DNA of 64,000 nt from Stenotrophomonas sp. MMGLT7 (GTDB lineage Bacteria; Pseudomonadota; Gammaproteobacteria; Xanthomonadales; Xanthomonadaceae), in assembly GCF_021168555.1 (NCBI RefSeq), contig NZ_JAJOZS010000003.1, positions 186,001 to 250,000 on the forward strand, in the 5' to 3' direction. A program made the position numbers and the translations under genes. How positions within the stretch are numbered: the stretch's first letter is position 1; each line of letters starts with the position of its first letter. The notes beneath the pieces were generated by a model. That model made no database searches. It was not told the DNA's origin and saw nothing but the letters and a program-made list of their open reading frames with translations. This document shows, one piece after another, positions 20,273 to 40,537 of this stretch.

Positions 20273-22501
20273 ATGATCCAGTTCGAGTCCCGCCTGAGCC
20301 GCCTGTGGGCCCACGAGAAGGCCAGCTACGGCCTGCGCGTGTTCATCGCCCTGGCGGCGGCGATGGCGGTGTGCTGGCAGCAGCAGCAGGTCACCGCGGT
20401 GCCCTCGGTGTTCCTGGGCATCATCGCCAGCGCCATCGGCGAGACCGACGACAACTGGCTGGGCCGCTGCAAGTCGGTGCTGCTGATGCTGGCGTGCTTC
20501 GCCGTCGCCGCCTTCGCGGTGCTGTACCTGTTCCCGTATCCGCTGCCGTTCGTGGCCGGGCTGGCGCTGACCACCTTCGGCCTCACCCTGCTCGGCGCGC
20601 TGGGCGAGCGCTATGCCTCCATCGCCCAGGCCACGGTGACGCTGGCGATCTACATGATGATCGGGCTGGACCAGCACGGCGCCAGCGGCAGCCATGCGCC
20701 GGCCTGGCACGGCGCGGTGCAGCTGCTGGCCGGCGCGACCTGGTACGGGCTGCTGTCGATCCTGTGGGCGGCGCTGTTCGCCAACCGCCCGGTGCGCGAG
20801 GCGCTGGCGCGGCTGTTCGTCGAGCTGGGGCTGTTCCTGCGGCTGAAGGCAGCGCTGTTCGAGCCGGTGCACCAGGCCGACCTGCAGGCCGAGCGGCTGG
20901 CGCTGGCCGAGCAGAACGCCCGGGTGGTGGCCGCGCTCAACACCGCCAAGACCGCGATCCTGAGCCGCTTCGGCCGTTCCGGCCGGCCCGGCGTGCAGTC
21001 GGGCCTGTACTTCCGCCTGTACTACATGGCGCAGGACTTCCACGAGCGCGCCAGTTCCTCGCACTACCCGTACGAGCAGCTCACCGAGGCGTTCTTCCAC
21101 AGCGACGTGCTGTACCGCTGCCAGCGCCTGCTCGCCCTGCAGGGCAAGGCCTGCGCCGCGCTGGGCGAGGCGCTGCGGCTGCGGCGCCCGTTCGTGTACG
21201 GCGAGACCACGCGCCAGGCGATGGCCGACCTGAGCCAGTCGCTGGAGTTCCTGCGCGCCCGCTCCGATCCGGCGCAGCTGCGCCTGCTCGGCTCGCTGGA
21301 CCTGCTCGGCAACAACCTGCAGAAGATCGAGCAGCAGCTGTCGGAGGCGGAAAGCTCGGACAGCACGCTGGACAGCATCGACACCCGCCTGCGCGATTCC
21401 AATCCGCACACGCTGCGCGAGATGGCGGTGCGCATCGGCCAGCAGTTCACCCCCAAGTCGCTGCTGTTCCGCCATGGCCTGCGCATGGCCATCGCGCTGT
21501 CGGTGGGCTACGGGCTGATGAAGCTGGTGCATGCCGACAACGGCTACTGGATCCTGCTGACCACCGCCTTCGTCTGCCGTCCCAACTACGGCGCCACGCG
21601 GCTGCGGCTGATCCAGCGCATCGCCGGCACGCTGGTCGGCCTGGGGCTGACCTGGGCGCTGATGCAGCTGTTCCCGACCCAGCAGGTGCAGTTGCTGCTG
21701 GCGCTGGCCGCGGCGCTGCTGTTCTTCGTCACCCGCGCCGACCGCTACGTCACCGCCACCGCGGCGATCACGGTGATGGCGCTGCTGTGCTTCAACCTGC
21801 TCGGCGACGGCTTCGTGCTGCTGCTGCCGCGGCTGGTCGATACCCTGATCGGCTGCGCCATCGCGGTGGCGGCCTCGTTCCTGATCCTGCCCGACTGGCA
21901 GGGCCGGCGGCTCAACCAGGTGGCGGCCAACGTGATCTCCGCCTGCGCCCGCTACCTGGCCGAGGTGCTCTCGCACTACCGCGGCGACCGCCGTGGCCCG
22001 CGCGACGACCTGGGCTACCGCGTCGCCCGCCGCGACATGCACAACGCCGACGCGGCGCTGTCGGTGGCGCTGTCGAACATGCTGCGCGAGCCAGGCTACT
22101 TCCGCCGCAAGCTCGACGCCGGCTTCCGCTTCCTGGCGCTGTCCAACACCCTGCTGGGCTACCTGTCGGCACTCGGCGCGCACCGCGCGCCGCTGGGCGA
22201 CCATCCCGACGACGCCCTGGTCGAGCAGGCCGGGCAGGCGCTGAAGCAGGCGCTGGACGACATCGCCGACGCGCTGTCCAGGCGCCGGCCGCTGCCGCAG
22301 CGCGACCGCGGGCAGGAGGACGCGCTGGCCGCCCGGCTGGAAGCGATGGCCGAGGACATCGACGAGAAGCACCGGCTGATCCGCACCCAGCTGTTGCTGG
22401 TGCTGCGCCTGCTGGCGCCGCTGCGCGCGGCCACCGACGAACTGGTCGGCCCGGACCCGGCGCCGCCGCGGCCGTCCCGCGCCAGTCCCGCGGCGGCCTG
22501 A
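20273..22501 (+). CDS. yccS: YccS/YhfK-type FUSC family inner-membrane protein
   Basis: A 742-aa protein with two bundles of membrane helices, at about residues 20-165 (with IIASAIGETDDNWLGRCKS) and 400-540 (with DNGYWILLTTAFVCRPNYGATRLRLIQRIAGT), the second being the FUSC domain. Cytosolic helical regions follow each bundle. The architecture and length match YccS/YhfK (TIGR01666-like). Relatives resemble aromatic-acid efflux proteins, but the transported substrate of YccS is not known. A -10-like CATAAT lies 27 bp before the ATG. Confidence 0.88.
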   Translation: MIQFESRLSRLWAHEKASYGLRVFIALAAAMAVCWQQQQVTAVPSVFLGIIASAIGETDDNWLGRCKSVLLMLACFAVAAFAVLYLFPYPLPFVAGLALTTFGLTLLGALGERYASIAQATVTLAIYMMIGLDQHGASGSHAPAWHGAVQLLAGATWYGLLSILWAALFANRPVREALARLFVELGLFLRLKAALFEPVHQADLQAERLALAEQNARVVAALNTAKTAILSRFGRSGRPGVQSGLYFRLYYMAQDFHERASSSHYPYEQLTEAFFHSDVLYRCQRLLALQGKACAALGEALRLRRPFVYGETTRQAMADLSQSLEFLRARSDPAQLRLLGSLDLLGNNLQKIEQQLSEAESSDSTLDSIDTRLRDSNPHTLREMAVRIGQQFTPKSLLFRHGLRMAIALSVGYGLMKLVHADNGYWILLTTAFVCRPNYGATRLRLIQRIAGTLVGLGLTWALMQLFPTQQVQLLLALAAALLFFVTRADRYVTATAAITVMALLCFNLLGDGFVLLLPRLVDTLIGCAIAVAASFLILPDWQGRRLNQVAANVISACARYLAEVLSHYRGDRRGPRDDLGYRVARRDMHNADAALSVALSNMLREPGYFRRKLDAGFRFLALSNTLLGYLSALGAHRAPLGDHPDDALVEQAGQALKQALDDIADALSRRRPLPQRDRGQEDALAARLEAMAEDIDEKHRLIRTQLLLVLRLLAPLRAATDELVGPDPAPPRPSRASPAAA

Positions 22502-22839
22502 GCGACTCCCAGGTCCACCGCCGCCGTCCAGGGCGCATGCATTCAATGTCGCCAGGAACCTGTTCACGATCTCCCTGCAGGGGCGACTTCGGTCGCGATG
22601 GGGCTTTGCCGGGAATGCCCCATCGCGACTGAAGTCGCTCCTACGCCGCTCCTACAGGTGACTCTCGAGCCACGGTGACCAACCGGCATCTGCTGCCTCC
22701 ATGCCGAGATCGTGAACTGGCTTCATCCGCACGCGGCGGGCCGGGGTCCGCCCCATGCCTGATTGCCTCGCCTCCCGCCTCGCGGAGCCAGCCGTACCGA
22801 CTGGCGCCCGAAAGACACGCGTCCAGGCGTTTTGCGCGG
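22502..22839. other. Intergenic region yccS / sensor kinase
   Basis: Convergent intergenic space of about 340 bp. It holds palindromic repeat copy 3 with a partial extra CGCTCCTAC unit. The remainder, 22660-22839, shows no gene with a conserved translation and no clear terminator. Confidence 0.5.
22577..22644. repeat. 68-bp palindromic repeat, copy 3
   Basis: Left arm is slightly diverged (GCAGGGGCGACTTCGGTCGC); right arm is the common CGACTGAAGTCGCTCCTAC. It lies between two convergent genes. Confidence 0.88.
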
Positions 22840-24237
22840 TCAGACCGAAGCGCCGGGCGGAGCCAGCGGCAGTTCCAGGATCGCCGACAGGCCGCCGCCG
22901 GGACGGTTGCGCAATTGCAGCGTGCCGCCGTCGCGCTGCGCGCACTCGCGCGCGATCGCCAGCCCGAGGCCGATGCCCCCGGTGCGGCGGCTGCGCGACT
23001 GCTCGCCGCGGTAGAACGGTTCGAACACCGCGTCCAGTTCCCGCTCGGGTATGCCGGGACCGTCGTCGGCGATTTCCAGCACGGCCTTGCCGTCGCGGCA
23101 GGCGATGCTCAGCGTCGCCCCGCCGCCGTACTTCACCGCGTTGTCGAGCAGGTTGCCGACCGTCCGCGCGCAGCGGACCGCGCCTGCCATGCAGCGCGGC
23201 GAGGGGCCGGCCTGCAGACGTATGCCGGCGTCGTGACCGCGCGTGCGGATGCACTCGGCCACGCACTGGCGCAGGTCCAGCGGCGCGGCGGCCTCGCCCT
23301 CGCGCGAGGCCGCCGAATACCCCATCAACTCATCGACCATGCGCTCGATGCGCCGCACGTCGGCGACCATGGCCTGGCGCTGTTCCGCTGCAGCGTCCAC
23401 CATCTCGATGCGCAGCCGCAGCCCGGTCAACGGCGTGCGCAGGTCGTGGGCGACCGCCAGCAGCATGCGCATGCGCTGTCCGACCTGGGCGAGCAGGCGC
23501 GCCTGCATGGCGTTGAGCGCCTCGGCCACCGCGACGATCTCGCGCGGGCCGCGGGCGGGGAAACCCACCTGTGCCACGCCGTCCTGGCCGACCTGGCCGG
23601 CGGCGTCTGCCAGCGCCCTGACCGGCCCGGTCAGGCGCCGCGCCACCCACCACACCAGCGGCACCAGCACCAGCAGGCCGCCGAGCAGGAAGGCCAGGCC
23701 GCCGGCCCGCCAGCGCAGCAGCCACGACCGGTCCGGCCCCACCACCAGCCAGCCGTCCGGCGTGCGCAGCGCCGCCTCGAACGCCGGCTGCGGCAGCTGC
23801 GCGCCGACGTAGACCGCGACCAGCGCGTCGAGCATCCGCGGCGAAAGCGTGGACTCGATGCGAGAGCCGCCGCCATCGCGCAGCGTCACCGCGGTCACCG
23901 CCGCGCGGGTGTCGCGCTCGCCGCGGGATGTCCATCGATAGGGGCGTACGCGCACGTCCGCCAGCGGCCGGCCGAGTTCGCGCGCCAGGATCGCCGCCAG
24001 TTCCCGGCTGCGCTCGTCCGCAGGGAACGGCGGTTGCGGGCTCAGCCGCCGGCGCAGCCCCAGGTCCTCGGCGCGGGCCTGGTCGCGCAGGCCGGCCAGC
24101 GCCTGCGGCACGGTCATCATCGGCAACGGCGGCGGCCACAGCAGCACCGCCGCCATCGCGATCGCCTGCGATGCCAGCACCGCCGCCAGTGCCAGCGCGC
24201 AGACCTGCACCAGGATCGGCAGCGGCAACCGCCTCAT
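22840..24237 (-). CDS. Sensor histidine kinase of an OmpR-type two-component system
   Basis: A 465-aa inner-membrane kinase. The first membrane segment is at about 8-35; a periplasmic sensor region spans about 36-195; the second segment is at about 200-220 (LAFLLGGLLVLVPLVWWVA). HAMP follows (RRLTGPVRALADAAGQV). The H-box reads LLAVAHDLRTPLTGLRLRIEM. The ATPase domain has NLLDNAVKYGG, IADDGPGIP and GGIGLGLAIARE. It overlaps the response-regulator gene by 4 bp (ATGA), so both are made together. The signal sensed is unknown; the divergent protease gene is a possible target. Confidence 0.93.
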   Translation of the reverse strand: MRRLPLPILVQVCALALAAVLASQAIAMAAVLLWPPPLPMMTVPQALAGLRDQARAEDLGLRRRLSPQPPFPADERSRELAAILARELGRPLADVRVRPYRWTSRGERDTRAAVTAVTLRDGGGSRIESTLSPRMLDALVAVYVGAQLPQPAFEAALRTPDGWLVVGPDRSWLLRWRAGGLAFLLGGLLVLVPLVWWVARRLTGPVRALADAAGQVGQDGVAQVGFPARGPREIVAVAEALNAMQARLLAQVGQRMRMLLAVAHDLRTPLTGLRLRIEMVDAAAEQRQAMVADVRRIERMVDELMGYSAASREGEAAAPLDLRQCVAECIRTRGHDAGIRLQAGPSPRCMAGAVRCARTVGNLLDNAVKYGGGATLSIACRDGKAVLEIADDGPGIPERELDAVFEPFYRGEQSRSRRTGGIGLGLAIARECAQRDGGTLQLRNRPGGGLSAILELPLAPPGASV

Positions 24238-24947
24238 CGGCCGCGCCCGCCATGGAAGCGGTAGCCGCGGCCGCGCACGGTCTCGATGAGGCCGTCCGCC
24301 CCGCGCCCGGCGAGCTTGCGCCGCAGGCGGCTGACGGCCAGGTCCACCGCCCGGTCGAAGCTCTCGGCCACCGGCCCGCGGGTCAGGTCGAGCAGGCGGT
24401 CGCGGCTCAGCAGCCGTCCCGGGTGGGCGGCGAAGGCCTCGAGCAGGGCGAACTCGCCCGCCGTCAGCGCCAGCGGCTCGCCGTCCGGGTCGAACAGCCG
24501 CTGTTCCTCCGGTTCCAGCCGCCAGCCGTCGAACACGATCGCCCGCCGCGGCGGCGACGGCCGCGTCCTGCCTTCGCGGCGCAGGATCGCGCGCAGGCGG
24601 GCAAGCAGCTCGCGCGGCTCGAACGGCTTGGCCAGGTAGTCGTCCGCGCCGGTTTCCAGGCCGACCACGCGGTCCATCGCCGACCCCAGCGCGCTGAGCA
24701 TCAGCACCGGCGTGCCCGACTGCAGCAGGCGGCGACAGATCGACAGGCCGTCCTCGCCGGGCAGCATCAGGTCCAGCACCACCAGGTCGACCGGCTGCAG
24801 CGCCATGAGCCGGTCCAATGCCTGCCCGTCGGCGGCCAGCTCCACCGCATAGCCGTTGCGCGACAGGTAGTCGCCGAGCGCGCAACGCACGCTGTCGTCG
24901 TCGTCGACCACCGCCACGCGCGCCGATACGGTCCCGGGCATCTTCAT
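24234..24947 (-). CDS. OmpR/PhoB-family response regulator
   Basis: A 237-aa regulator. The receiver domain has acidic VVDDDDSV, phosphoacceptor in VVLDLMLPGEDGL, and KPFEPRELLARL. The winged-helix DNA-binding domain shows LTAGEFALLEAFAAHPGRLLSRDRLLDLTRG and FDRAVDLAVSRLRRKLAG ... ETVRGRGYRF. The start at MKMPGTV gives a normal-length protein; the upstream extension is not conserved-looking. It is the first gene of the operon with the sensor kinase and is divergent from the metallopeptidase-retropepsin gene, 126 bp away. Confidence 0.94.
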   Translation of the reverse strand: MKMPGTVSARVAVVDDDDSVRCALGDYLSRNGYAVELAADGQALDRLMALQPVDLVVLDLMLPGEDGLSICRRLLQSGTPVLMLSALGSAMDRVVGLETGADDYLAKPFEPRELLARLRAILRREGRTRPSPPRRAIVFDGWRLEPEEQRLFDPDGEPLALTAGEFALLEAFAAHPGRLLSRDRLLDLTRGPVAESFDRAVDLAVSRLRRKLAGRGADGLIETVRGRGYRFHGGRGR

Positions 24948-25073
24948 ACGGCCAGCTTGTCCGTGTTGCGTATCCGGATTGTGTCGGCAATGCATCGGCG
25001 CGACAACGCGCGGACAGCACGCCGATAGCCGCGGCATCCAGGATCGATCCATCCCCACGCTTCCAGGATCGCC

Positions 25074-26615
25074 ATGAACCTACTGCGCCCCCTCGCCACC
25101 GCCGCGCTGCTCGCGCTGGCCCCTTTCGCCCATGCCGACGAATCGCTGTGCGATGCCGCGCGGAACGCACTTGCGCAGCCGGCCGCGCCGCACTGCGCGC
25201 AGACCGCGCACGGGATCGCCCTGTCCGGCGATGCCGGACAGGCACGGATGCTCGCCTGGCTCGGCGAAGACGGCGCCAAGCGGTTCGCCCGCCACTTCGA
25301 CCGCGAGCCGGCGCGCTACGCGATCCTGGAGATGGAGCGCGACGAGCTCGACACGCAGCGGGAGCAACGGCTGCGCCAGGCCGGCTTCGCGGTCGTGCTG
25401 CAATGGCGCTCCCACGCCCGGTTCGTCGCCGACTACCTGGACTCGATCGCCCGCTCCAGCAAAGCCGCCGCACGCGCCGCGGGCCTGGACGAGGCGCGGG
25501 CACGCGAGAAGAGCGAGCAGACCCGGCAATCGCAGCAGGCGAAGCTGACGCCTTACTCCTTGTCGCGCCTGGACGCGAGCATGGTGGCCCACGAACTGGG
25601 GCATCGCTGGTACGTGGAAGCCTTCTGGCCCGGGGTTCACAGCGAAGGCCACTACGGCGGCCCGGGACCGGACTGGATGGACGAGACCGCCGCCGTGCTG
25701 ATGGAGCCCGGCGACACCGCCGAGGAGCGCCGCGGGCAGTTCCGCGACCTCTACCGCGGGCGTGCCGCAGGCTTCTTCGGCAGCTACCGCTACCCGCAGT
25801 TGATCGACCTGCCCACCTTCCTCGCCAGCGACCATCCGAACCGGCGGCTGAAACTGCGCGGCGGCGTACATGCCATCGCCTCCCCGCAGGCCGCGCCCGA
25901 CATCGCCGCGGCCAGCGCCTACTACCTGCAGGCGCGGCTGTTCGCCGACTTCCTGCTCGACCGCAGCGACGGCAAGCCCGTGTTCGCCGCGATCGCCGGA
26001 GCGCTTGCGCGCGGGGACGGCTTCGAGCGCTGGCTGGCCGAGGCCGGCAGCGACCACGGCCTGCCTTCCGACGTTCCCGCGCTGACGCGCGACTGGCACG
26101 ACTGGCTGCATGCGCGCTTCGGTCCGCCCGCGGCATCGGCAGCGGCAGCGGCAGCGGCAATGACGCTGCCCTTCGTTCGCCATGGCACCGGCCACCTCAT
26201 CGTGCCGGTGCAGATAAACGGGATCGAGACCCGGATGGTCGTCGACACCGGGGCCGGCCGCAGCGTCGTCGATGCAGGCCAACGCGCCCGGCTGGCGCTG
26301 CGGGCGGATGCATCGGCGGGTTCCGGCGCCACCGCCACCGCCACCGGGGCCGGCGGCGGTGGCCTGGCCATCGCGACATCGGGCGGGAACGCCCTTTCCG
26401 TCGGCGCCGTCTGCGAGGACGGCGTCGCGTTCGGGATCATGGACCTGTCCCACGTGGTTTCCGCGCTGAAGCGGACCGGCGTCGAGGTCTCCGGGGTGCT
26501 GGGCAGCGATTTCCTCCACCGCCACGGCGCGGTGATCGACTACGCCCGAAGCGAGATCCGCTTCAGGCGCGCGCCTGCACGCGCTGCCGTCGCCGCTGCC
26601 GCTGCTTCGCCATGA
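25074..26615 (+). CDS. Secreted HExxH metallopeptidase-like / retropepsin-like fusion protein
   Basis: A 513-aa exported protein (signal peptide MNLLRPLATAALLALAPFAHA). The N-terminal part has a zinc-peptidase motif HELGH (H173, E174, H177), with a candidate third ligand Glu204 in DWMDETAA. A poly-Ala linker (about 361-373) leads to an aspartyl-protease-like domain: VPVQINGIETRMVVDTGAGRS with catalytic Asp391, then VLGSDFLHRHGAVIDYARSEIRFR. The metal-peptidase assignment is from motif only. The fusion is unusual; neither substrate nor activity is known. Its divergent neighbour is a two-component operon. The last 180 bp are duplicated at 32329-32526. The C-terminus is low-complexity Ala. Confidence 0.75.
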   Translation: MNLLRPLATAALLALAPFAHADESLCDAARNALAQPAAPHCAQTAHGIALSGDAGQARMLAWLGEDGAKRFARHFDREPARYAILEMERDELDTQREQRLRQAGFAVVLQWRSHARFVADYLDSIARSSKAAARAAGLDEARAREKSEQTRQSQQAKLTPYSLSRLDASMVAHELGHRWYVEAFWPGVHSEGHYGGPGPDWMDETAAVLMEPGDTAEERRGQFRDLYRGRAAGFFGSYRYPQLIDLPTFLASDHPNRRLKLRGGVHAIASPQAAPDIAAASAYYLQARLFADFLLDRSDGKPVFAAIAGALARGDGFERWLAEAGSDHGLPSDVPALTRDWHDWLHARFGPPAASAAAAAAAMTLPFVRHGTGHLIVPVQINGIETRMVVDTGAGRSVVDAGQRARLALRADASAGSGATATATGAGGGGLAIATSGGNALSVGAVCEDGVAFGIMDLSHVVSALKRTGVEVSGVLGSDFLHRHGAVIDYARSEIRFRRAPARAAVAAAAASP

Positions 26616-26634
26616 GACCGCAGCAGGCGAGCAG
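26435..26634 (+). repeat. Direct repeat, left copy (3' ends of protease and MFS genes)
   Basis: About 200 bp repeated in the same orientation at 32329-32526. The core 26502-26582 matches 32395-32475 with two differences in 81 bp. The left copy contains the intact protease 3' end; on the minus strand it also encodes a stub (LLACCGLMAKQRQRRRQRVQARA without a start) related to the C-terminus of the MFS protein at 32456. Confidence 0.85.
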
Positions 26635-26789
26635 ACCTTGCGCCCGCCCTGAACGAAGACGCGGAACGCTCATTCTCCCGTCCCTGCGCATCTGCGGATG
26701 AGAGGCCGCCTCGCTTCTTCGCCGGAATGCTCCCAACGGGAACGGGACAGTTCGCAAGGCCCGCCGGCATCCTCCCTGTCCCGCCGTGG

Positions 26790-26818
26790 CCGGCCCGCGT
26801 CAGGCGGCGGCGGGCCGG
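26790..26818. terminator. GC-rich hairpin after the first Gfo/Idh gene
   Basis: Stem CCGGCCCG / CGGGCCGG lies just beyond the stop of the leftward Gfo/Idh gene. No U-run follows, so it would be a weak or rho-assisted terminator. Confidence 0.4.
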
Positions 26819-26830
26819 GAAGGGCACTTC

Positions 26831-27841
26831 CTATTCATACGACACCTTCACCGGCAGGCCGGTATCGAGCGACCGCTGCGCGGCGATGCAGCAGCGCATC
26901 GCGTTCAGCGCCTCCTCGCCGGTGCAGACGATCGGCTTGTCGTTCACTACCGAGTCGATGAAGCTCGCCTTCTCGAAGATATATGCCTGCTTGAAGCGAT
27001 TGAGGTAGTAATCGAGGGGCTTCCTGAGGGAGATCGCCTCGTCGTTGTAAAGCTCGACGGTCGATTCCGTGACGTTCTCGGCCTTCAGCATTCCCTTCTC
27101 GCCAAAGACCTCCACCCGTTGATCGTAGCCATAGACGGCCTTCCTGCTTTCGTCGATCAGCCCGAAGCCATCCTTTTCCAGCTTGCACGACGCCGTCAGG
27201 GTGTCGATATCGTTCAATTCGGCCAGTCCGGGGTCGATGAGGGTGGTTCCCTGAAGATAGATCTCGGTGATCCGGGATCCTGCCTGGTAGCTGACCATGT
27301 CGAAGTCGTGCGCCGCAAAATCCTGGATCAGGCCGCCGGAGTTCCGGATGAAGTCGTAGGGCAGGACAAACGGATCGCGAGCGACCACCCGGACGATGTG
27401 CGGCCGTCCGATCTCGCCGGCCTTGACGCGCTCGTGGATATCGCGGAACTGGGGATCGAACCGCCGATTGAAGCCGATCTGCAGCTTGACGCCCTGTTGC
27501 CTGACGAAATCGAGCGTCGCCTCGCATTCCTCGATGCTCTCGTCCTTGCCCAGCGGTTTCTCGCAGAAAATATGCTTCTTCGCCGCGGCCGCCTTGCGTA
27601 TATGCTCGATATGCTGGCCCGATGGCGTGAATATGAAGATGGCCTCGAAGTCCCCGTATCCGAGCAGCGCATCGTAATCGGTGAACGTGTGCTCGACGCC
27701 CGACAGGTCGACATGATCGCTCAGTTCGTCCAGGCGGGGATCCGACACCGCGACGATGTCGACGCTGTCCATCTGCTTCAGCTGCGCATAATGCATGGCG
27801 CCATTCGTGCCCAAGCCGGCTACTGCACATTTCAGTTTCAT
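26831..27841 (-). CDS. Gfo/Idh/MocA-family oxidoreductase (inositol 2-dehydrogenase-like), copy 1
   Basis: A 336-aa NAD(P)-dependent sugar or cyclitol dehydrogenase. The Rossmann fold is near the N-terminus (KCAVAGLGTNGAMHYAQL). EKPLGKDESIEECEAT is the family EKP motif; GFNRRFDPQFRDIHERV and the catalytic-site AAHDFDMVSY follow. Length is normal. Codon use is less GC-biased than the surroundings (for example runs such as ATATGCTCGATATGC), a sign of transfer. It faces away from the transporter-dehydrogenase-porin genes and may act on the same polyol. Exact substrate unknown. Confidence 0.88.
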   Translation of the reverse strand: MKLKCAVAGLGTNGAMHYAQLKQMDSVDIVAVSDPRLDELSDHVDLSGVEHTFTDYDALLGYGDFEAIFIFTPSGQHIEHIRKAAAAKKHIFCEKPLGKDESIEECEATLDFVRQQGVKLQIGFNRRFDPQFRDIHERVKAGEIGRPHIVRVVARDPFVLPYDFIRNSGGLIQDFAAHDFDMVSYQAGSRITEIYLQGTTLIDPGLAELNDIDTLTASCKLEKDGFGLIDESRKAVYGYDQRVEVFGEKGMLKAENVTESTVELYNDEAISLRKPLDYYLNRFKQAYIFEKASFIDSVVNDKPIVCTGEEALNAMRCCIAAQRSLDTGLPVKVSYE

Positions 27842-28828
27842 CTCAGCCACCTGTCTTGCAGTCAAATGAACTTGCCTGGACACCGGGGCGGGATGTCCTC
27901 GAAAGGGGGAGCGTCATCGCGCCAGGCAAGCACCAGGCCGGTGCTGCGCGCCGATGACGGCATCGACTGGGGCGGGAAACGATGCGCCTGGCTGCATCGG
28001 GTCGCATCCGGCTGCCGGGCCCGGTTTCCCGGTTCGGGAAAACCCTGAAGCCGGGCTTGGAGGACGCTGGCATCTCGTGTCTCTTATTCCCGGACTGTCG
28101 ATACCTTTCAACCCATTGTATGCAGCGCCACGCCGGCCGCGTGGCGTTGCGCTTTAATGTCGCGTCGACCGTCGAACGCCCTGATTCCCATCAGGACGAC
28201 CATGCCTGTCCAGGCATCCCGGATAAACCTGGCGCACCCGGGGACATGACCCGCCCCGGGTGCGCCCCTCGGTCCTACTTCCTGCCAACCGAATCCGGCA
28301 CCGCCCCTCGACATTATGTGTCACGCGACACTGGGTCGCGTCTGCGCGAGCCATCCGGCAAGGGAATGAGCGCACCGATATCCAGTGCAGCCGTGATCGA
28401 ACGAGCCGGCAGCTACGCTCCGTCCCGACCACGTACGCGCCGCTCCGCACACGACGGTTCACGGGCGACGCCGGAGCACACCCGCGTAGTCCTCCGTACG
28501 CGGTAAAACCCCGAAGAATCGACCCCTGTACGCCGAACCATAATCCGGAAAATCGGTATTCACTCCCGTCATCGGTGCGTTCTGGATTGCGGCAAATGGG
28601 GCAGCGAAAACAACCTGGAAAACCAACCGTCCGGCTCAATTACCGGTACTTTCCTGTGCCAGACGGACGCAGGCGGCGCATATTTTAAAAACCCGAATTA
28701 TTTTCCCAAGAAACCATCACGTCAATGAATACCGTCAAGGACGTCCGCTGCGCATAGGCATCCAATGGCAGCGTAGGCCAGATATACCCGCGCCCCCGTT
28801 TTACTCGACTAGTAACGGAGCTTCGCCA
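27842..28828. other. Long intergenic region between divergent inositol-type genes
   Basis: Nearly 1 kb without a believable gene: small frames on both strands are Arg/Ser-rich and not conserved. It is less GC-rich than the genome. It contains a 13-bp GC-rich hairpin (28231-28266) and, at the right end, an element shared with 36429-36531. The promoters of both divergent transcripts must lie here. It could hide a small RNA or a decayed regulatory gene; nothing proves either. Confidence 0.5.
28231..28266. repeat. Perfect 13-bp hairpin GGCGCACCCGGGG / CCCCGGGTGCGCC
   Basis: A perfect 13+13 inverted repeat with a 10-bp loop in the long divergent intergenic region. No T-tract follows either arm. 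It could be a terminator with rho, a protein site or part of an RNA. Confidence 0.6.
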
Positions 28829-28830
28829 AT
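28719..28830 (+). repeat. Duplicated leader element, copy A (upstream of the GRP transporter)
   Basis: Begins GTCAATGAATACCGTCAAGG and runs to the ATG of the GRP transporter gene. About 110 bp match 36429-36531, including CCAATGGCAGCG and AACGGAGCTTCGCCAATG, with small gaps. The match stops at the start codon, which suggests a shared promoter or leader, or a dispersed repeat that carries a ribosome-binding site. Confidence 0.7.
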
Positions 28831-29737
28831 GGCCAGTATCCTCAACATACTGATCGGTCTCATTCCTGCGCTCGGCTGGGGTTCGCAGGGCATCGTGATG
28901 CAGAAGATCGGCGGGCGCACCGCCAACAAGACGATGGGCATGGTGCTGGCCACTCTCATCTTCGCGATAGCGGTCCTGCTCCTGCGTCCGGACGCCAGCG
29001 GCCCGCTCACCACCACCGTGCTCATGGCCGCGCTGGTCAACGGCATTCCCTGGTCGATCGGCCAGATCCTGCAGATAAAGTCGTTCGAACTGATCGGCGT
29101 CTCGCGCGCGATGCCGATCTCCACCGGCACCCAGTTGCTGGGCGCCACCGTGATCGGCGCGTTCTTCTTCCACGAGTGGACGCAGGGGTACCAGTACGGC
29201 CTCGGCATCGCCGCCCTGGTGCTGCTGGTCGTCGGCGTGTGGATGACCACCTACCGCGAGGACAAGTCCGATGTCGCCGCCGGCTCCAACATCAAGCTTG
29301 GGCTGATCATACTGCTGCTGTCCTCGGCGGCATTCGTCGCCTACGCCACGGCCGGGCGCTTCTTCCGCGTCAGCAGCTACGACCTGCTGCTGCCGCAGGC
29401 GGTGGTGATGACGCTGTCCACCCTGATCATCAGCGTGTTCATGTCCTCCCGGGAGGAGGTGTTCGACCGCGAGGTCGGCGTGCTGGGCCGCAAGACCTGG
29501 CAGAACCTGGCCACCGGCGCCTGCTTCGCGATCGCCAACTTCACCATACTGATCTCGATCGAGCGCAACGGCGTGGCGGTGGGCTGGACGCTGTCGCAGA
29601 TGAACGTCATCGTCGCCACGCTCGGCGGCATCCTGATCCTGAAAGAGCGCAAGACCCGCAAGGAGCTCGGCTACGTGCTGGGCGGCCTGGCGCTGGTCGC
29701 CATCGGCGGCATCCTGGTCGGTTTCACCAAGAGTTGA
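28829..29737 (+). CDS. GRP-family sugar (glucose/ribose-type) transporter
   Basis: A 302-aa inner-membrane carrier with ten predicted hydrophobic segments, of the GRP (glucose/ribose porter) branch of the drug/metabolite superfamily. Family features are the first helix GLIPALGWGSQGIVMQKIGG, QILQIKSFELIGVSRAMPISTGTQLLG and the C-terminal LSQMNVIVATLGGILILKERKT. It is followed 48 bp later by an inositol-dehydrogenase-like gene and an OprB porin, so a polyol or sugar substrate is likely. Translation starts at the end of the duplicated leader element. Confidence 0.88.
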   Translation: MASILNILIGLIPALGWGSQGIVMQKIGGRTANKTMGMVLATLIFAIAVLLLRPDASGPLTTTVLMAALVNGIPWSIGQILQIKSFELIGVSRAMPISTGTQLLGATVIGAFFFHEWTQGYQYGLGIAALVLLVVGVWMTTYREDKSDVAAGSNIKLGLIILLLSSAAFVAYATAGRFFRVSSYDLLLPQAVVMTLSTLIISVFMSSREEVFDREVGVLGRKTWQNLATGACFAIANFTILISIERNGVAVGWTLSQMNVIVATLGGILILKERKTRKELGYVLGGLALVAIGGILVGFTKS

Positions 29738-29785
29738 GCGGCCCCGCGCTTTTCCCATCATCGAAGAAATGAAGGAGAACAGATC

Positions 29786-30802
29786 ATGTTGAACCTCGGA
29801 GTCATCGGCTGCGGTTCCATCGGCCGCGACCACGTCGAGCGTCTCACCACCACCGTGGCCGGCGGCCGCGTCGCCGGCGTGTTCGACGTGGTGCCGGAAG
29901 CCTGCCGCAAGGCGGTCGCCGACTTCGGCCTGGACGCGGAGATATTTGCCAGCGCCGAAGCGATGATCGATTCGCCGAAGATCGATGCGCTGGTCGTGTG
30001 CTCGAAGAACGACGTCCACCTGGCGCCGCTGCTGCACGCGATCAAGATCGGCAAGAACGTGCTGACCGAGAAACCCCTCACCACCTCGGCGGCCGAAAGC
30101 CGGCAGGTGGTGGAGGCCGAACTGGCCGTCGGGCGCCGGTTCGTGCAGGTGGGCTTCAACCGCCGCTTCGACCGCGGCTACCTGCAGCTCAAGGCGATCG
30201 CCGATTCCGGCCAGATCGGCGCGCTGCTGCTGGCCAACTGCCGGCACTACAACGCGGCCCCGGCCACGTCCTACTACCGCACCGACGACGTCATACTCGA
30301 CACCTTCATCCACGAGATCGACGTGATGCACTGGCTGTTCGGCGAGAACTACGCCAGCATCGAGATGAAGCTCGGCAGGCGCAACTCGCTCAATCCCGCG
30401 CCCGACCTGGACGAGCCGCAGCTGGCCATCATCGAACTGGCGAGCGGCGCGCTGATCACCGTGGAGATCAACATCAACTGCCAGTACGGCTACGACATCC
30501 AGTGCCGCCTGGTCGGCGAGCGCGGGATCGCCAGCCTGCCCGACGTGGCCACCCCGGAGGTGCGCCTGGACGGCAGGATCTACCACGCCATCGACCCCAG
30601 CTGGACCTCTCGCTTCGTCGACGCCTACAACAGCGAGTTCCTCGCCTTCATCCACGCCACCGTGGACAAGACGCCGCTGGCCGGGCCGTCGGCCTGGGAC
30701 GGCTACGTCGCCTCGATCGCAGGCGAAGCCGCCGTGACCAGCCTGCACGAGCGGCGAAAGGTGGACATCGTCATTCCCGACAAGCCCGCGCTGTACGCCT
30801 GA
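29786..30802 (+). CDS. iolG: Inositol 2-dehydrogenase-like Gfo/Idh oxidoreductase, copy 2
   Basis: A 338-aa enzyme close to IolG, which oxidises myo-inositol to scyllo-inosose with NAD+. Features are NLGVIGCGSIGRDHVERL (nucleotide binding), VLTEKPLTTSAAESR, VGFNRRFDRGYLQLKA and TFIHEIDVMHWLFGE, which contains the catalytic His/Asp region. A good AAGGAGAA ribosome-binding site precedes the ATG. Other iol genes (iolE, iolB, iolD) are not in the window, so the substrate may instead be another cyclitol or sugar. It lies between the sugar transporter and the porin. Confidence 0.85.
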   Translation: MLNLGVIGCGSIGRDHVERLTTTVAGGRVAGVFDVVPEACRKAVADFGLDAEIFASAEAMIDSPKIDALVVCSKNDVHLAPLLHAIKIGKNVLTEKPLTTSAAESRQVVEAELAVGRRFVQVGFNRRFDRGYLQLKAIADSGQIGALLLANCRHYNAAPATSYYRTDDVILDTFIHEIDVMHWLFGENYASIEMKLGRRNSLNPAPDLDEPQLAIIELASGALITVEININCQYGYDIQCRLVGERGIASLPDVATPEVRLDGRIYHAIDPSWTSRFVDAYNSEFLAFIHATVDKTPLAGPSAWDGYVASIAGEAAVTSLHERRKVDIVIPDKPALYA

Positions 30803-30867
30803 GGCGCGCGACGCCCGCGCAACCCCGGCGCCGCCCTTCCCGGGACGGCGCCGGTCGGAGGATTCCC

Positions 30868-32178
30868 ATGAGCACCGGCACGACGCCCATCCTCGGCATC
30901 GCCCTGGCCCTGGCCATCGGCGGCCTGCCGATCCCCGTCCACGCCGCCGACGCGGACTCGCCCGTCCTGAGCGGGGACTGGGGCGGCACCCGCACGCGGC
31001 TGGAGCAGGACGGCATCGCCTTCCAGCTCGGCTGGACCAACGAGGCCGCGCACAACGCCAGTGGCGGCGAACGCCACCTGACCCGCTCGGCCGGGCAGTT
31101 CGTGCTCGGCACCACCCTGGACCTGGAAAGGCTGTGGAACTGGCGCGGCGCCAGCTTCCAGGCCACCGTCAGCAAGCGCTACGGCGAGAACCTCGGCGCC
31201 GACGCCGGCATCGGCGCCAGCCAGCTCCTGCAGGAGATCTACGGCCGCGGCCAGACCTGGTGGCTGACCCGGTTCTCGCTCGACCAGGAGCTGTGGGACG
31301 GCCGGCTGGCGCTGCGCATCGGCAAGTCGCCGGTAGGCGCGGATTTCGGCTACGACGGCTGCGCCTTCCAGAACCTCACCTTCTGCGGCGCGCCGCCGGG
31401 CAACATCGAGGGCCGCTACTGGCTGAACTGGCCGATCGCGCCCTGGGGCCTGCGCGCGCGGCTGGCGACCGGCGACCGGACCTATCTCCAGCTCGGCGTC
31501 TACCAGGTCAACTCGCGCTACACCGACGATCGCTGGGCGCGCCGCAACGGCTGGAAGCTCGACAATCCCGGTGGTACCGAGGGCGCCCTGGTCCCGGTCG
31601 AGTTCGGCTGGATGCCGCGGCCGCGCGGACTGCCCGGCACCTACAAGCTGGGCGCCTGGATCAACACCGGCGGCGGCCCGGACCTTTACCTGAACAGCGA
31701 GCGCCTGCCGCTGGCCGGCGCCGGCGGCGAGCCGCTGCAGCGCAACAACAGCTATGGCGGCTATCTGTCCATCGTCCAGCAGCTTGCCGGCGAGGCCGAC
31801 GGCAAGGGGCCGCAGCTGTTCTTCAACCTGACCAAGGCCGACCGCGCCACCGCCCGCTTCGACGGCCAGCTCGCCGTCGGCTTGATCTACCAGGGGATCT
31901 TCGATCGCCCGCGCGATTCGGCCGGCATCGCCTTCGGCGCCACCGAATCGAGCAGCCTCTACGCCCGCCACGCCCGTGCCTGGAATGCCGCCCACCCGGG
32001 CAGCGAACCGCTGGTGCCGGCCGGCGGCTACGAGAAGGTGGTCGAGGTGTTCTACGCCTGGTCGCCGCTGGCCTCGATCCGCGTGCAGCCGAGCCTGCAG
32101 TACGTCGCCGATCCCGGCGGTGCCGGCGAGCGGCATAACGCCCTGGTGCTCGGACTGAGAACCAGCGTGGCGTTCTGA
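30868..32178 (+). CDS. OprB-family carbohydrate-selective porin
   Basis: A 436-aa outer-membrane beta-barrel protein. A signal peptide (about 1-26, ending VHA) precedes the OprB signature LSGDWGGTRTRLEQDGIAFQLGWTNE. Later stretches such as LRIGKSPVGADFGYDGCAFQNLTFCG and the terminal aromatic Phe (LRTSVAF) fit the barrel. OprB porins admit glucose and related sugars. A GGAGG sequence lies 8 bp before the ATG. It closes the transporter-dehydrogenase-porin set. Confidence 0.9.
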   Translation: MSTGTTPILGIALALAIGGLPIPVHAADADSPVLSGDWGGTRTRLEQDGIAFQLGWTNEAAHNASGGERHLTRSAGQFVLGTTLDLERLWNWRGASFQATVSKRYGENLGADAGIGASQLLQEIYGRGQTWWLTRFSLDQELWDGRLALRIGKSPVGADFGYDGCAFQNLTFCGAPPGNIEGRYWLNWPIAPWGLRARLATGDRTYLQLGVYQVNSRYTDDRWARRNGWKLDNPGGTEGALVPVEFGWMPRPRGLPGTYKLGAWINTGGGPDLYLNSERLPLAGAGGEPLQRNNSYGGYLSIVQQLAGEADGKGPQLFFNLTKADRATARFDGQLAVGLIYQGIFDRPRDSAGIAFGATESSSLYARHARAWNAAHPGSEPLVPAGGYEKVVEVFYAWSPLASIRVQPSLQYVADPGGAGERHNALVLGLRTSVAF

Positions 32179-32328
32179 CCGGCGGCGGCGCCTGCCGCCG
32201 CGGATCGAGCAACGCCCGCCCTGGGCGAGGCCGGTCGCCGCCTGCCGCAGTTCGTCGATGCGCCGCCGTTGGCATGGCGGCGACGCCCGATGCGTCGGTG
32301 CCGCCGCTGGCGACGGCGTCACGCCCGC

Positions 32329-32526
32329 GATCATGGACCCGTCCACGCGGTTTCCGCGCTGAAGCGGACGACGCTGGAGTCTCTCCATGGTGCTGGCAGC
32401 GATTTCCTCGACCGCCACGGCGCGGTGATCGACTACGCCCGAAGCGAGATCCGCTTCAGGCCCGCGCCTGCACGCCTTCCCGTCGCCGCTGCCGCTGCTT
32501 CCCGGTGAGGCCGCAGCAGGCCAGCG
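32329..32526 (+). pseudogene. Decayed 3' fragment of the retropepsin-like gene (right copy of direct repeat)
   Basis: Encodes VSALKRTTLE, then GSDFLDRHGAVIDYARSEIRF, matching the C-terminus of the 25074-26615 protein, but without the catalytic DTGAG segment and with small indels upstream. Weaker similarity extends left to about 32246. On the opposite strand the same DNA encodes the C-terminus of the MFS protein. It is a remnant, not a functional gene. Confidence 0.85.
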
Positions 32527-33670
32527 TGGCCACCGCCAGCAGCGCGCCGGCGGCGGCCACGCCGTTCCAGCCGGCGATGGCGAAGGCCGCCCCGCCCAGC
32601 CACGAGCCCAGCGCACCGCCGATGAAGTAGCAGGTCATGTAGGCCGAGGTGATGCGGTTGCGGGCGGCGGCATCCAGGCGGTAGATCACTCCCTGGTTGG
32701 CGATGTGCACCGCCTGCACCGCCACGTCCAGCAGCAGCACGCCGACGATCAGCGCCGCCAGCGAGTGCGCCCCGGCCAGCAGCGCCAGCCACGACGCCAG
32801 CAGCATCGCCGCCCCGCCCCAGGTCACCCAGCCGCCGCGGCCACGGTCGACCAGCTTGCCCGACACGCTGGCGGCCAGCGCGCCGGCGGCGCCGATCAGG
32901 CCGAACAGGCCGATCTCGCGGGTGCCGTAGCCGTAGCCGGGGCCGGACAGCAGGAACGCCAGCGTGGTCCAGAACACGCTGAAGCCGGCGAAGGTCAGCC
33001 CGCCCAGGATCGCCCGCGAGCGCAACTGCGGCTGCTCGCGCAGCAGCGATGCCACCGAGACGATCAGCGCGCCGTAGCGCAGTGCCGGATTGCCGGGATG
33101 GCGCGGCAGCGCTCGCCACAGCAGGCCGGCCACCGCCAGCATCAGCGCCGCGGCCACCCAGTAGATCGTGTGCCAGCCGCCGATGCCGGCGAGCAGGCCG
33201 GCGGCGGTGCGCGCCAGCAGGATGCCCAGCAGCAGCCCGCTCATCACCGTGCCGATGACGCGGCCGCGCTGTTCCGGCGCGGCCAGGGTGGCGGCGAACG
33301 GCACCAGCAGCTGCGCCCCCACCGAGCACAGCCCGGCCAGCAGGGTGCCCGCCAGGAACAGCGCGAAGCCGCTGGACAGGGCACAGACCAGCAGGCCGGC
33401 GGCGCTGAGCACGTACAGCGCCACGATCAGCGTGCGCCGCTCCAGGCGGTCGCCCAGCGGCACCAGCAGCAGCAGGCCGGCGGCATAGGCGAGCTGCGCG
33501 GTGGTGACCACCGCGCCGGCCTGCCGCGCGCCCAGCCCGAACTCGTCGGCCAGGATCTGCAGCAGCGGCTGCGCATAGTAGTTGCCGGCCACGGCCAGGC
33601 CGCAGGCGGCCGCCATCAGCAGCACCAGGCCCTGGCCGAGTCGCGGCGAGGAACCGGAGGAAGAGTCCAT
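32456..33670 (-). CDS. MFS transporter, YnfM/drug-efflux type
   Basis: A 404-aa inner-membrane protein with twelve hydrophobic segments. It starts SPRLGQGLVLLMAAACGLAV followed by GNYYAQPLLQ, typical of this MFS branch, and has LVPLGDRLERRTLIV (motif A-like loop). Such proteins export small molecules or sugars. The last 20 residues (KQRQRRREGVQARA) are encoded within the duplicated tail region and are basic and atypical. It is divergent from a LysR regulator with a 99-bp shared promoter region, so that regulator probably controls it. Confidence 0.88.
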   Translation of the reverse strand: MDSSSGSSPRLGQGLVLLMAAACGLAVAGNYYAQPLLQILADEFGLGARQAGAVVTTAQLAYAAGLLLLVPLGDRLERRTLIVALYVLSAAGLLVCALSSGFALFLAGTLLAGLCSVGAQLLVPFAATLAAPEQRGRVIGTVMSGLLLGILLARTAAGLLAGIGGWHTIYWVAAALMLAVAGLLWRALPRHPGNPALRYGALIVSVASLLREQPQLRSRAILGGLTFAGFSVFWTTLAFLLSGPGYGYGTREIGLFGLIGAAGALAASVSGKLVDRGRGGWVTWGGAAMLLASWLALLAGAHSLAALIVGVLLLDVAVQAVHIANQGVIYRLDAAARNRITSAYMTCYFIGGALGSWLGGAAFAIAGWNGVAAAGALLAVATLACCGLTGKQRQRRREGVQARA

Positions 33671-33769
33671 GAAATCGAAAGTCCGTCGAAAAGTGCGGCA
33701 AGTCTGGGCGTGCCGTTTCGATCCGACAAATGTATTGTTTTCACCCCATCCATCTCGTATCGAGATCGC

Positions 33770-34657: not shown

Positions 34658-35122
34658 GACAGGATCTCCTGGCCGCCCGTGCATGCCTGCACCTGATCCG
34701 CATCGAGTACCGGGCGGGCGACCCGCGGCGCAGCCGCTGGACGCGGCGCGGTCGCCGCATCGGTACCGCGCCGCGGTCGTCTCCGCGCGTGCTGCCGGCG
34801 GCGCTGGCGGGCGTACGGCCGTCCCCGGCCAGGGATTGCCGCCGGCGGCAGCCTGCACCCCGGCCGAGCGCCCGTGCCCGCCGCCTGCCCGCATCCGATG
34901 AATCCCGCGCGAGCGCTGGCGCCGGCAGCGGCCGCGCCACGCGCAGGGCGCGGCTATACTGCGCCCCGCGATCGGCCGCACGGATTCGGGCCTTCGCCGT
35001 AAGCGTTCACGTCAACCAACGCATCCCCGGCGGTCCCGATGACCGGCGGTGGTGCGTGCTCGGGTTCGACGATGCGCATCCGCCCCGGCTCCGGCATCGC
35101 TCATTTTGCGCGAGGAGCGACG
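34658..35122. other. Intergenic region LysR / YhhS-type MFS gene
   Basis: About 465 bp, very GC-rich, with no conserved ORF. A -10-like TATACT at 34955-34960 is the best promoter candidate for the next gene and would give a leader of about 155 nt. Confidence 0.45.
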
Positions 35123-36307
35123 ATGACGGCTTTATCCCAGGACATTCCCTCGCGCCGGCTGTCGTGGATGACGCTGGTGCTGTTTCTCGTCTACCTGACC
35201 GTGGCCATGGCGATGCCCGCGGTGGCGGTGCGGGTCTCGCACACGCTCGGCATGGGCAATACCGCCTCCGGGCTGGCGGTGGGCATCGCGTTCCTGGCCA
35301 CCATCCTCAGCCGCGGCTGGGCGGGGCGCCTGGCCGACGAGCGCGGCGGCCGCCCCTGCCTGTACCTCGGCCTGGCCTTCTACCTGGCCGCCTCGCTGTG
35401 CTGCCTGGCCTCGGCGGCCACCGTGCTGCCGCGCGAGGCGTCCTACCTGGTCCTGCTGGCCGGCCGCCTGCTGCTGGGGCTGGGCGAAAGCCTGACCCTG
35501 TTGGGCATGCTCGCCTGGGGCATGACGCTGATGGGGCCGGCGCGCTCGGGCAAGGTGATGGCGCTGGTGGGCATGGGCATGTACGGCGCCTTCGCGCTGG
35601 GCGGGCCGCTGGGCTTGTGGCTGCTCGAGCGGCTGGGCTTCGCCGGCCTGATGGCGGTGTGCGCGGCGTTGCCGGTGGCCGGCGCGGCGATGCTGGCGCG
35701 CACGCCCGGCGAGCCGCCGGCCCGGCAAGGGGCGCGGCCGTCGTTCCGGCAGGTGCTCGGACGCATCTGGGAACCCGGCGCGGTGGTGTTCCTGCAGGGC
35801 ATCGGCTTCGCCGCGCTGGGCGCGTTCTTCCCGCTGTACTTCATCGCGATGGGATGGCAGGGCGCCGGCTACGGGCTGAGCTGCTTCGGCCTGGGCTTCG
35901 TGCTGGTGCGGTTGCTGTTCGGCAGCCTGCCCGACCGGATCGGCGGGCTGCCGGTCGGCGCGATATCGCTGGCGGTCGAGGCGGTCGGCCAGGCGCTGCT
36001 GTGGCTGGCGCCGTCGCCGGCGCTGGCCTTCGCCGGCGCACTGCTCAGCGGCGCCGGCTGCTCGATGGTGTTTCCGGCGATGGGGCTGGTGGCGGTCAGG
36101 CGCGTGCCGCCGTACCTGCGCGGCACCGCGATGGGCGGGTTCGCCGCCTTCCAGGACCTGGCCTACGGCGCCACCGGCCCGCTGGCCGGGGTGATCGCCG
36201 ACCGCTTCGGCCACGCCTGGGTGTTCCTGGTCGGCAGCCTCGCCGCGCTGGCCGGCCTGGCGCTGGTCGCCGCGATGTGGCTGCGCCCGCGCGAACCGCA
36301 GCGCTGA
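35123..36307 (+). CDS. MFS transporter of the YhhS/YfcJ family
   Basis: A 394-aa inner-membrane carrier with twelve hydrophobic segments. It shares YhhS-type features: ATILSRGWAGRLADERGGRP (motif A), AGRLLLGLGESLTLLGMLAWGM, YGAFALGGPLGLWL, AGAGCSMVFPAMGLVAVRRVP (here read GAGCSMVFPAMG) and FQDLAYGATGPLAGVIADRFG. Family members are putative exporters, linked in some species to herbicide or sugar efflux. An upstream in-frame ATG was rejected in favour of the one behind CGAGGAGCG. No obvious operon partner. Confidence 0.88.
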   Translation: MTALSQDIPSRRLSWMTLVLFLVYLTVAMAMPAVAVRVSHTLGMGNTASGLAVGIAFLATILSRGWAGRLADERGGRPCLYLGLAFYLAASLCCLASAATVLPREASYLVLLAGRLLLGLGESLTLLGMLAWGMTLMGPARSGKVMALVGMGMYGAFALGGPLGLWLLERLGFAGLMAVCAALPVAGAAMLARTPGEPPARQGARPSFRQVLGRIWEPGAVVFLQGIGFAALGAFFPLYFIAMGWQGAGYGLSCFGLGFVLVRLLFGSLPDRIGGLPVGAISLAVEAVGQALLWLAPSPALAFAGALLSGAGCSMVFPAMGLVAVRRVPPYLRGTAMGGFAAFQDLAYGATGPLAGVIADRFGHAWVFLVGSLAALAGLALVAAMWLRPREPQR

Positions 36308-36727
36308 GACCGGAACCGTTCGTCGCGGGACGGGCAGCCCGCGTTCGCACCGCGGCGCGGCTGCCGCTTCCGGCCATTCGCCGAGACACGGCTCGTCCGG
36401 CGTTCGAGTGCGCACCGAAGCCTCCGCGCGTCAATGAACCCGGTCAATGACGCCGCTCGCGCACAGGCATTGAATGGCAGCGCAACCAGGATGCCCGCGC
36501 GCCCCACGTTCAAGCAACGGAGTTTCGGCAATGCCCGGTTACCGTCGACATCGCGCTGCGCGTGCCCGGCACCGCCGCCTCCTTCGCGCCGTCCTTCGGC
36601 GCGGACGCCACAGACGCGCTGCGCGCCCGGCGCCGGCCGCCGGCGACGAGCCCGCCGACCGACGTCGGGAATCGCCCCGTCACTTTCCCTGAAATTCAGA
36701 GCAGACAGACACAGGCAGGGTTTCGAC
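36308..36727. other. Intergenic region MFS / OYE gene
   Basis: About 420 bp. It contains the second copy of the duplicated leader element (36429-36531), followed by about 190 bp of GC-rich DNA. The short frame starting at the end of the element (36530) is Arg/Ala-rich, 53 codons long and not convincing. Confidence 0.5.
36429..36531 (+). repeat. Duplicated leader element, copy B
   Basis: Matches 28719-28830: GTCAATGAACCCGGTCAATG, ATGGCAGCG, then CAACGGAGTTTCGGCAATG. It includes a Shine-Dalgarno-like ACGGAG and an ATG, but no recognisable gene starts there. The OYE gene begins about 200 bp downstream. Confidence 0.7.
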
Positions 36728-37951
36728 ATGAACAAGCAACTGACCGACAGGATCACGTTCCGTCATGGCGCGACGTCCAACAACCGGATCGTGCAAGCGC
36801 CCATGCTCACCAACAGCGGGGAGGGCGACGGCTTCGTCACCCAGGACACCATCGACTACTACGCTGCGCGCTCCCGATCCGCAGGCATCGTCATCGTCGA
36901 GTACTGCTATGTCAGTTTCGCCGGTGGCCCCTCCCGCAGCTGGGCCGATGACCGCCAGCAGCTCGGCATCTATACCGACGGCCACATGGAAGGGCTGGCG
37001 AAGATCGCCCGGGCGCTGAAGAAGGACGGAAACAAGGCGCTGGTGCAGTTGGCGCACGCCGGCCGCGAGTCGAACTTCCGCGCCCGGCAGGGGCACACGG
37101 TCTACGCGCCCAGCGCGTTCGATTTCGGCTTCCTCGACTATGAGGTGGAAGCACTGGCCGACGAAGACATCGAACGGATCATCCAGGACTTCGGAACGGC
37201 CACCCGGCGCGCGATAGATTGCGGCTTCGACGGGGTCGAGATCCACGGCGCGAACCATTACCTGCTGCAGCAGTTCTTCTCCGCCTGGTCCAACCGCCGC
37301 GACGACCGCTGGGGCGGCTCGGCGGATCGCCGCATGCGCTTCATCGTCGAGGTCATGCGCAAGGTGTTCGACGTCATCGCCGAGCACGCCCCCGACGACT
37401 TCATCATCGGCTACCGGATCAGTCCGGAAGAGGTGCACGGGGACCATGTCGGGTACTCCTGCGACGACTCGCTGAAACTGATCCAGACCCTCACCGCGAC
37501 CTTCGACTTCGACTACATCCACGTGTCCCTGCCGCAGTACGACGCAAGGCCCAAGGGTTCGGACAGGAGCTTCGGCGAACTGTTCGGCGCCGTGCTTCCG
37601 GAGCAGACCAAGCTGATCGTCGTGGGCAACGTGATGAGCGAAGAAAGCGCCCGAGATGCGCTCGGCCATGCCGACCTGGTCGCCGTCGGGCGCGCCACGC
37701 TGATCGACCCCGAGTTCGGCAGCAAGCTATCCGAAGGTCGCGGCCAGGACATCGTCAGGGAAATCTCGCCGGAACAGGTGAAGAAGTCCAGGCTGCCCCC
37801 CGGGCTGGTCAACCTGTTCTCCGATCCGAACATGCATCCCTCGCTGCCGGGCCGCGAGTCGATCTACCACCTGCACGAAGGGGGATCCCTGGACAAATCC
37901 GTCCTGAAGGACGGGACCGGGTCGGAGTACAACCTGGACGACCTCAAGTAG
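36728..37951 (+). CDS. NADH:flavin oxidoreductase (Old Yellow Enzyme family)
   Basis: A 407-aa single-domain TIM-barrel flavoenzyme. FMN-binding and catalytic features are NRIVQAPMLTNSGEGDGFVT, ALVQLAHAGRES, FDGVEIHGANHYLLQQFFS followed by NRRDDRWGG, and the phosphate-binding GRATLIDPEFG near the C-terminus. The sequence resembles NADH-dependent flavin oxidoreductases of low-GC Gram-positives more than xenobiotic reductases of the YqjM/NemA type. This class reduces activated C=C bonds; the substrate is unknown. No iron-sulfur or second flavin domain is fused. Codons are somewhat less GC-biased than those of core genes. Confidence 0.9.
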   Translation: MNKQLTDRITFRHGATSNNRIVQAPMLTNSGEGDGFVTQDTIDYYAARSRSAGIVIVEYCYVSFAGGPSRSWADDRQQLGIYTDGHMEGLAKIARALKKDGNKALVQLAHAGRESNFRARQGHTVYAPSAFDFGFLDYEVEALADEDIERIIQDFGTATRRAIDCGFDGVEIHGANHYLLQQFFSAWSNRRDDRWGGSADRRMRFIVEVMRKVFDVIAEHAPDDFIIGYRISPEEVHGDHVGYSCDDSLKLIQTLTATFDFDYIHVSLPQYDARPKGSDRSFGELFGAVLPEQTKLIVVGNVMSEESARDALGHADLVAVGRATLIDPEFGSKLSEGRGQDIVREISPEQVKKSRLPPGLVNLFSDPNMHPSLPGRESIYHLHEGGSLDKSVLKDGTGSEYNLDDLK

Positions 37952-38132
37952 CCGCGGGACGGCGGCTGTCGCCATGGCAGCAGCCGCCGTTCGGGACGAC
38001 GGGCGCGGACGCATCCCGATGGGAACCGATGGCAGCGGGCGGCCGCTGCCCCCGTTCGCCCCGTCATCTGCATACGTCCGGGTCGAAGCAGGCGGCCAAG
38101 TAGCCAAGTATTCCTCGCCTGCATACGCTAGC

Positions 38133-38240
38133 GAAGCCGGATTCCAGTGCTGCGGGAGGCGCAGCTCCAGGCCGCGGACGGCACGAATGAACCGGCAACC
38201 GCCCTGCGGCATCGTCGCGGAAGCATTGAATCCGGCTTTC
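38133..38240. repeat. Inverted repeat with GAAGCCGGATTC arms
   Basis: GAAGCCGGATTCCAGTGCTG (left) and the complement of CAGCATTGAATCCGGCTTTC-like sequence (right) pair over about 23 bp, with a 60-bp centre. It lies between the convergent OYE and TetR genes and may act as a terminator or be a small non-autonomous repeat. Confidence 0.6.
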
Positions 38241-38246
38241 ATGCAT

Positions 38247-39109: not shown

Positions 39110-39111
39110 GC

Positions 39112-40530: not shown

Positions 40531-40537
40531 CGCGTGC

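Follow-up and report, generated by a model that had tools for sequence, protein, structure and literature searches.

An apparently acquired sugar-gene cassette bracketed by direct repeats of an overlapping gene junction in Stenotrophomonas sp. MMGLT7

A cassette of 5,643 bp (26633..32275) in Stenotrophomonas sp. MMGLT7 lies between a protease gene (P; 25074..26615, plus strand) and a gene for an MFS transporter (M; 32456..33691, minus strand; PF07690, E 9e-39; ~73% to relatives), with the copies of a direct repeat standing exactly at both of its ends. Positions refer to the window, the whole stretch of 64,000 nucleotides that was analyzed. The locus is a clear but ordinary case, a well-preserved scar of ordinary DNA acquisition at a tail-to-tail junction. 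The evidence supports an overlapping P-M junction as the target and points, tentatively, to a single insertion that duplicated it.

Results

Self-BLAST of the window paired 26382-26632 with 32276-32525 in direct orientation, with 85.0% identity over 253 columns (E 7.6e-72), and the same pair was recovered as families D1, D2, and D10 in the repeat listing. This confirms the direct repeat that a first-pass annotation of the sequence had placed around the cassette, with a start about 50 bp further left. The left copy (26382..26632, plus strand) contains the intact 3' end of P, with its stop at 26615, and a 70-bp stub of the C terminus of M on the opposite strand. The right copy (32276..32525, plus strand) contains a decayed fragment of P and the intact 3' end of M, whose minus-strand stop lies at 32456; the gene ends in each copy are as that annotation described them. 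A search of the 4.27-Mb assembly found these two full copies only, the other two matches to the repeat being of 41-47 bp (E 1e-4 to 1e-5). With 33 substitutions separating the copies over 248 aligned positions, along with several single-base gaps, and with both copies within one 470-kb contig, the repeat is not an assembly duplicate.

The divergence between the copies is uneven. The first 50 aligned positions carry 15 differences and the next 75 carry 8, with several 1-bp gaps, and a single difference is found in the 50 positions of 26510-26559. Within an 81-bp core (26502-26582), the copies differ at 26517 and 26569 only, exactly the two differences previously noted. A permutation test returned a modest p of 0.019, several of the differences being clustered, and the pattern hints at exchange between the two copies.

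The product of P is composed of an N-terminal half in which an HExxH motif was recognized by eye, a C-terminal retropepsin-like domain (residues 377-498, with the PF13650 match at 377-480, E 5.5e-8), and a tail of 15-17 amino acids encoded opposite M. Homologues of P elsewhere in the family and order samples cover one half only, and retropepsin-domain genes stand alone in relatives. No single ORF joining the two halves turned up among 298 further genomes of the family or 378 further genomes of the order (the samples overlap), and the fusion of a metallopeptidase-like HExxH half with a retropepsin domain was seen in this genome only. An independent paralogue would have counted against the history proposed in the first-pass annotation; a genome search detected no other homologue of P in this genome.

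The right copy retains P residues 437 to 498, frameshifted. In its ungapped outer block, the 17 differences are distributed as 4, 8, and 5 over the three codon positions, and this lack of codon-position bias points to decay without visible selection. An apparent extension of the fragment upstream, towards the DTGAG motif of the P active site, was at noise level (53 of 200 shuffles were as good). These observations bear on a history in which the 3' end of P was first duplicated in tandem beside M, or a second protease gene formerly stood there, and the cassette came later to lie between the copies. The outer end of the right fragment does look older (30% divergent), as a separate decaying copy would, and lone retropepsin-domain genes exist in relatives. 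Such a history is nevertheless unlikely, since the cassette would have needed to insert precisely where the two copies met, the M tail of the left copy is unexpected in an independent paralogue, the absence of codon-position bias indicates at most brief selection on the right copy as a gene, and the upstream extension is indistinguishable from noise.

The M stub in the left repeat (26563..26632, minus strand; 23 codons, 70 bp) reads LACCGLMAKQRQRRRQRVQARA* and overlaps the tail of P. The minus strand of the left copy reads LLACCGLMAKQRQRRRQRVQARA*, versus TLACCGLTGKQRQRRREGVQARA* at the end of M itself. Through this tail, the G+C fractions by codon position in the M frame are 0.83/0.57/0.91 in the left copy and 0.78/0.65/0.91 in the right copy, with 0.73/0.55/0.94 for the whole of M. 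The last 17 codons of P (26565-26615) have 0.82/0.94/0.53, versus 0.75/0.55/0.88 for the whole of P, and the third-position value of the stub is accordingly 0.91 in the M frame and 0.53 in the P frame. Because both copies carry an M tail with M-type codon usage, and the P tail is without usage of the P type, P and M appear once to have formed a single overlapping convergent junction, as first proposed, and the comparison supports the view that this junction, with an overlap of 53 bp, predates the cassette. Most likely, the 70 bp at the inner end of the left copy derive from M, and the P reading frame runs on into the strand opposite M and stops there. Homology to MFS proteins continuing past the left stub was at noise level (20 of 200 shuffles).

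In the converse reading, M would have extended into P, so that its tail was made from DNA opposite P and the repeat is a mere copied end of P with no old junction behind it. The length of the C terminus does vary among the MFS proteins of relatives, as this reading would have it. It is highly improbable, however, given that the codon composition of the tail is that of M coding in both copies and is abnormal for P, and that the M residues LACCGL can be aligned, gap-free, with the final membrane helix (LLWMGL) of related MFS proteins.

The ancestral neighborhood of M can be read from relatives: at 39 loci, from about 37 genomes of the family, M is convergent with a gene for a FUSC/YccS-like inner-membrane protein. 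With one exception among these loci, the two genes are spaced by −62 to +305 bp, and 15 loci have an overlap of 56-62 bp; the exact values for three loci (L097 to L099) are unreliable, as the alignment overran the stop of M. In the window, the FUSC/YccS-like gene (20273..22501, plus strand; PF12805, E 3e-94) and M are 9.95 kb apart. Between them stand a sensor-kinase-like ORF (roughly 22840-24260, by eye from the ORF list), the adjoining gene for a response regulator (24234..25058, minus strand; PF00072 and PF00486; no close match in the M loci of relatives), P, the cassette, and the repeats; relatives show none of these at the FUSC-M site. Since relatives have the FUSC-M pair without intervening genes, and the P fusion is absent from the sampled genomes, the P-M neighborhood is recent. 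The convergent, overlapping arrangement claimed for P and M therefore stands, but not as one of old neighbors, the inherited partner of M in about 37 relatives being the FUSC/YccS-like gene.

The P-M pair resembles the FUSC-MFS pair of relatives in being composed of convergent overlapping genes with the same overlap phase, the 53 bp here and the 56 bp of relatives both leaving a remainder of 2 on division by 3. It differs in that P is a newly arrived partner, whose tail is taken from the strand opposite M. The shared phase raises the idea that P took over the former reading frame of FUSC, which is only suggestive, as a match in phase is a one-in-three coincidence.

Other features were observed around these genes. 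In Stenotrophomonas sp. HITSZ_GD (L005, 11186-13112), the FUSC-M site holds a different insert, of 1.9 kb, with a MurJ-like ORF (by eye). The window contains at least seven copies of near-perfect palindromic repeats of ~65-85 bp, REP-like and with the core GTAGGAGCGACTTCAGTCGCGATGGGGC (3008-3075, 17625-17710, 22579-22642, 48083-48152, 57073-57138, 58975-59043, and 62980-63048), and the copy at 22579-22642 follows shortly after the end of the FUSC gene. Relatives also lack a second stretch, 35003-42649, which is bounded by the LysR gene beside M and the gene at 42634; it holds another MFS gene, an NADH:flavin oxidoreductase gene, and minus-strand genes, which are not at that place in relatives.

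Four genes were recognized in the cassette. The first, IolG1 (26831..27883, minus strand), is inositol-2-dehydrogenase-like and is separated by a divergent intergenic stretch of 945 bp (27884..28828; 62% G+C) from a gene for a GRP/RhaT-type sugar transporter (28829..29737, plus strand; PF06800, E 2e-82). The latter is followed on the same strand by the inositol dehydrogenase-like IolG2 (29786..30802) and by a gene for an OprB carbohydrate porin (30886..32178; PF04966, E 1e-80). The G+C content climbs along these four genes, with successive values of 59% (IolG1), 65%, 67%, and 72% (OprB), and the flanking genes stand at 72-74%. The ORFs of the intergenic stretch have no Pfam match, the stretch itself has no Rfam match, and no convincing RNA element was found in the region. 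A terminator-like hairpin is present at 28121-28151, inside this unusually long and relatively G+C-poor stretch.

The GRP transporter is absent from 298 other genomes of the family, is weakly matched in 3 of 368 other genomes of the class, and has no match in E. coli genomes, and IolG1 has at most 34% identity to proteins of 149 relatives. These comparisons support the view that the cassette includes genes foreign to the family, and most of its genes look foreign. The only other copy of cassette sequence in the genome is a paralogue of OprB with 72% identity at the DNA level. Because OprB has this paralogue and is host-like in composition, the cassette is composite, and its assembly may have taken two or more steps. 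The closest transporter-dehydrogenase pair is found on Klebsiella plasmid NZ_CP092401.1, with 60% (transporter) and 57% (IolG2) protein identity. This plasmid carries a GRP transporter and a Gfo/Idh/MocA dehydrogenase in the same order as the cassette but, unlike the cassette, is without OprB, a divergent IolG1, and the junction repeat. Searched against plasmids and phages for a source, the cassette gave matches to single genes or to a gene pair only.

The first-pass description of the cassette as inositol-type holds for the family resemblance of its enzymes and does not extend to a full catabolic pathway. Both dehydrogenases score below the curated cutoffs that mark the IolG of a myo-inositol iol operon (IolG1, 340 of 355 bits for TIGR04380; IolG2, 353 of 540 bits for NF052679), and none of the four recognized genes is IolB, IolC, or IolD. 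Nor does the genome contain a match to IolE (TIGR04379) at an E value of 0.001 or better, in a search whose control was positive in 7 of 14 genomes, and without IolE the inositol pathway is incomplete. Judging by the families of its proteins, the probable role of the cassette is uptake of a sugar or cyclitol by way of OprB and the GRP transporter, followed by oxidation by the two dehydrogenases.

Discussion

The history that best accommodates these observations has four steps. In the ancestral state, shown by the synteny of relatives, M was convergent with the FUSC-like gene. A block with the regulator gene and P would then have been placed between FUSC and M, with the retropepsin domain joined at the stop codon of M; P would thereby have been left without an end of its own, terminating inside the opposite strand of the M tail. 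Next, a 5.64-kb stretch may have entered the P-M junction, leaving ~250 bp of junction on both sides, either by microhomology-mediated template switching or through capture of DNA in the repair of widely staggered breaks. The right-hand fragment of P then decayed, whereas the full-length P at the left and M at the right were preserved, and occasional exchange between the copies may have kept the core alike. No genome with an unbroken P-M junction was found in the comparison, in which the genus was represented by one genome, and the middle two steps are inferred from this one genome.

One insertion event with duplication of the 250-bp target is the preferred reading, held at a confidence that falls just short of an even chance. 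Integration of a circle would leave the same anatomy, but a single insertion accounts for the exact contact between repeats and insert and does so without a donor that bore the junction. The distribution of differences is at odds with it, since 30% divergence in the outer 50 bp versus 2% in the core fits poorly with uniform decay after a single duplication.

Several kinds of element were considered as the source. A site-specific integrative element was rejected, as no integrase was recognized: the recognized genes are IolG1, GRP, IolG2, and OprB, and Pfam gave no match for the long intergenic ORFs. Insertion of an IS or transposon was likewise rejected, with no transposase recognized and a duplication of 250 bp that is too long. 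IS target duplications are typically of a few base pairs.

The first-pass annotation had proposed integration of a circular molecule, bearing the cassette together with a copy of the P-M junction, through one homologous crossover that would leave two direct copies of the junction. The direct orientation of the repeats and the reciprocal completeness of P and M are what such a crossover predicts, and a near-identical core between diverged ends fits a crossover or conversion tract of diverged copies. In this respect, the locus resembles a Campbell-type integration, with target DNA as direct repeats at both ends. Campbell-type integration normally requires a circle with a homologous stretch. Unlike the products of such integration, the repeats here are 15% diverged, and the cassette with its junction is found in no record of the plasmid or phage collections, which are incomplete. 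Moreover, no replication, integrase, or mobilization gene was recognized in the cassette, and the donor would already have had to own ~250 bp of a lineage-specific junction, so that a circle accounts better for spread between strains than for the first origin. It is a possible but doubtful origin for this locus.

The preferred single insertion is closest to illegitimate recombination. Acquired DNA can be inserted by illegitimate or homology-facilitated illegitimate recombination (e.g., PMC3240628), and the locus is similar to such insertions in having nonmobile foreign genes, no integrase or transposase, and a chromosomal site with little or no homology. The literature search retrieved background on illegitimate recombination only. 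The locus differs from such insertions in that ~250 bp of target is duplicated, whereas loss of target DNA is the usual outcome in them. Insertion by illegitimate recombination is further exemplified in the literature on natural transformation of Acinetobacter.

That the two junction copies still recombine, with the core homogenized by gene conversion and the cassette excisable as a circle, leaving one P-M junction behind, is very unlikely. If it were so, sugar use would be a reversible, strain-variable trait without a recombinase gene.

The locus is an unusually readable case of metabolic genes entering a genome with no mobile element involved, and it also illustrates how a protease would have gained a new C terminus from the opposite strand of a new neighbor. 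With the insert in Stenotrophomonas sp. HITSZ_GD, the FUSC-MFS junction appears to have been opened at least twice, and its history can be traced across the family.
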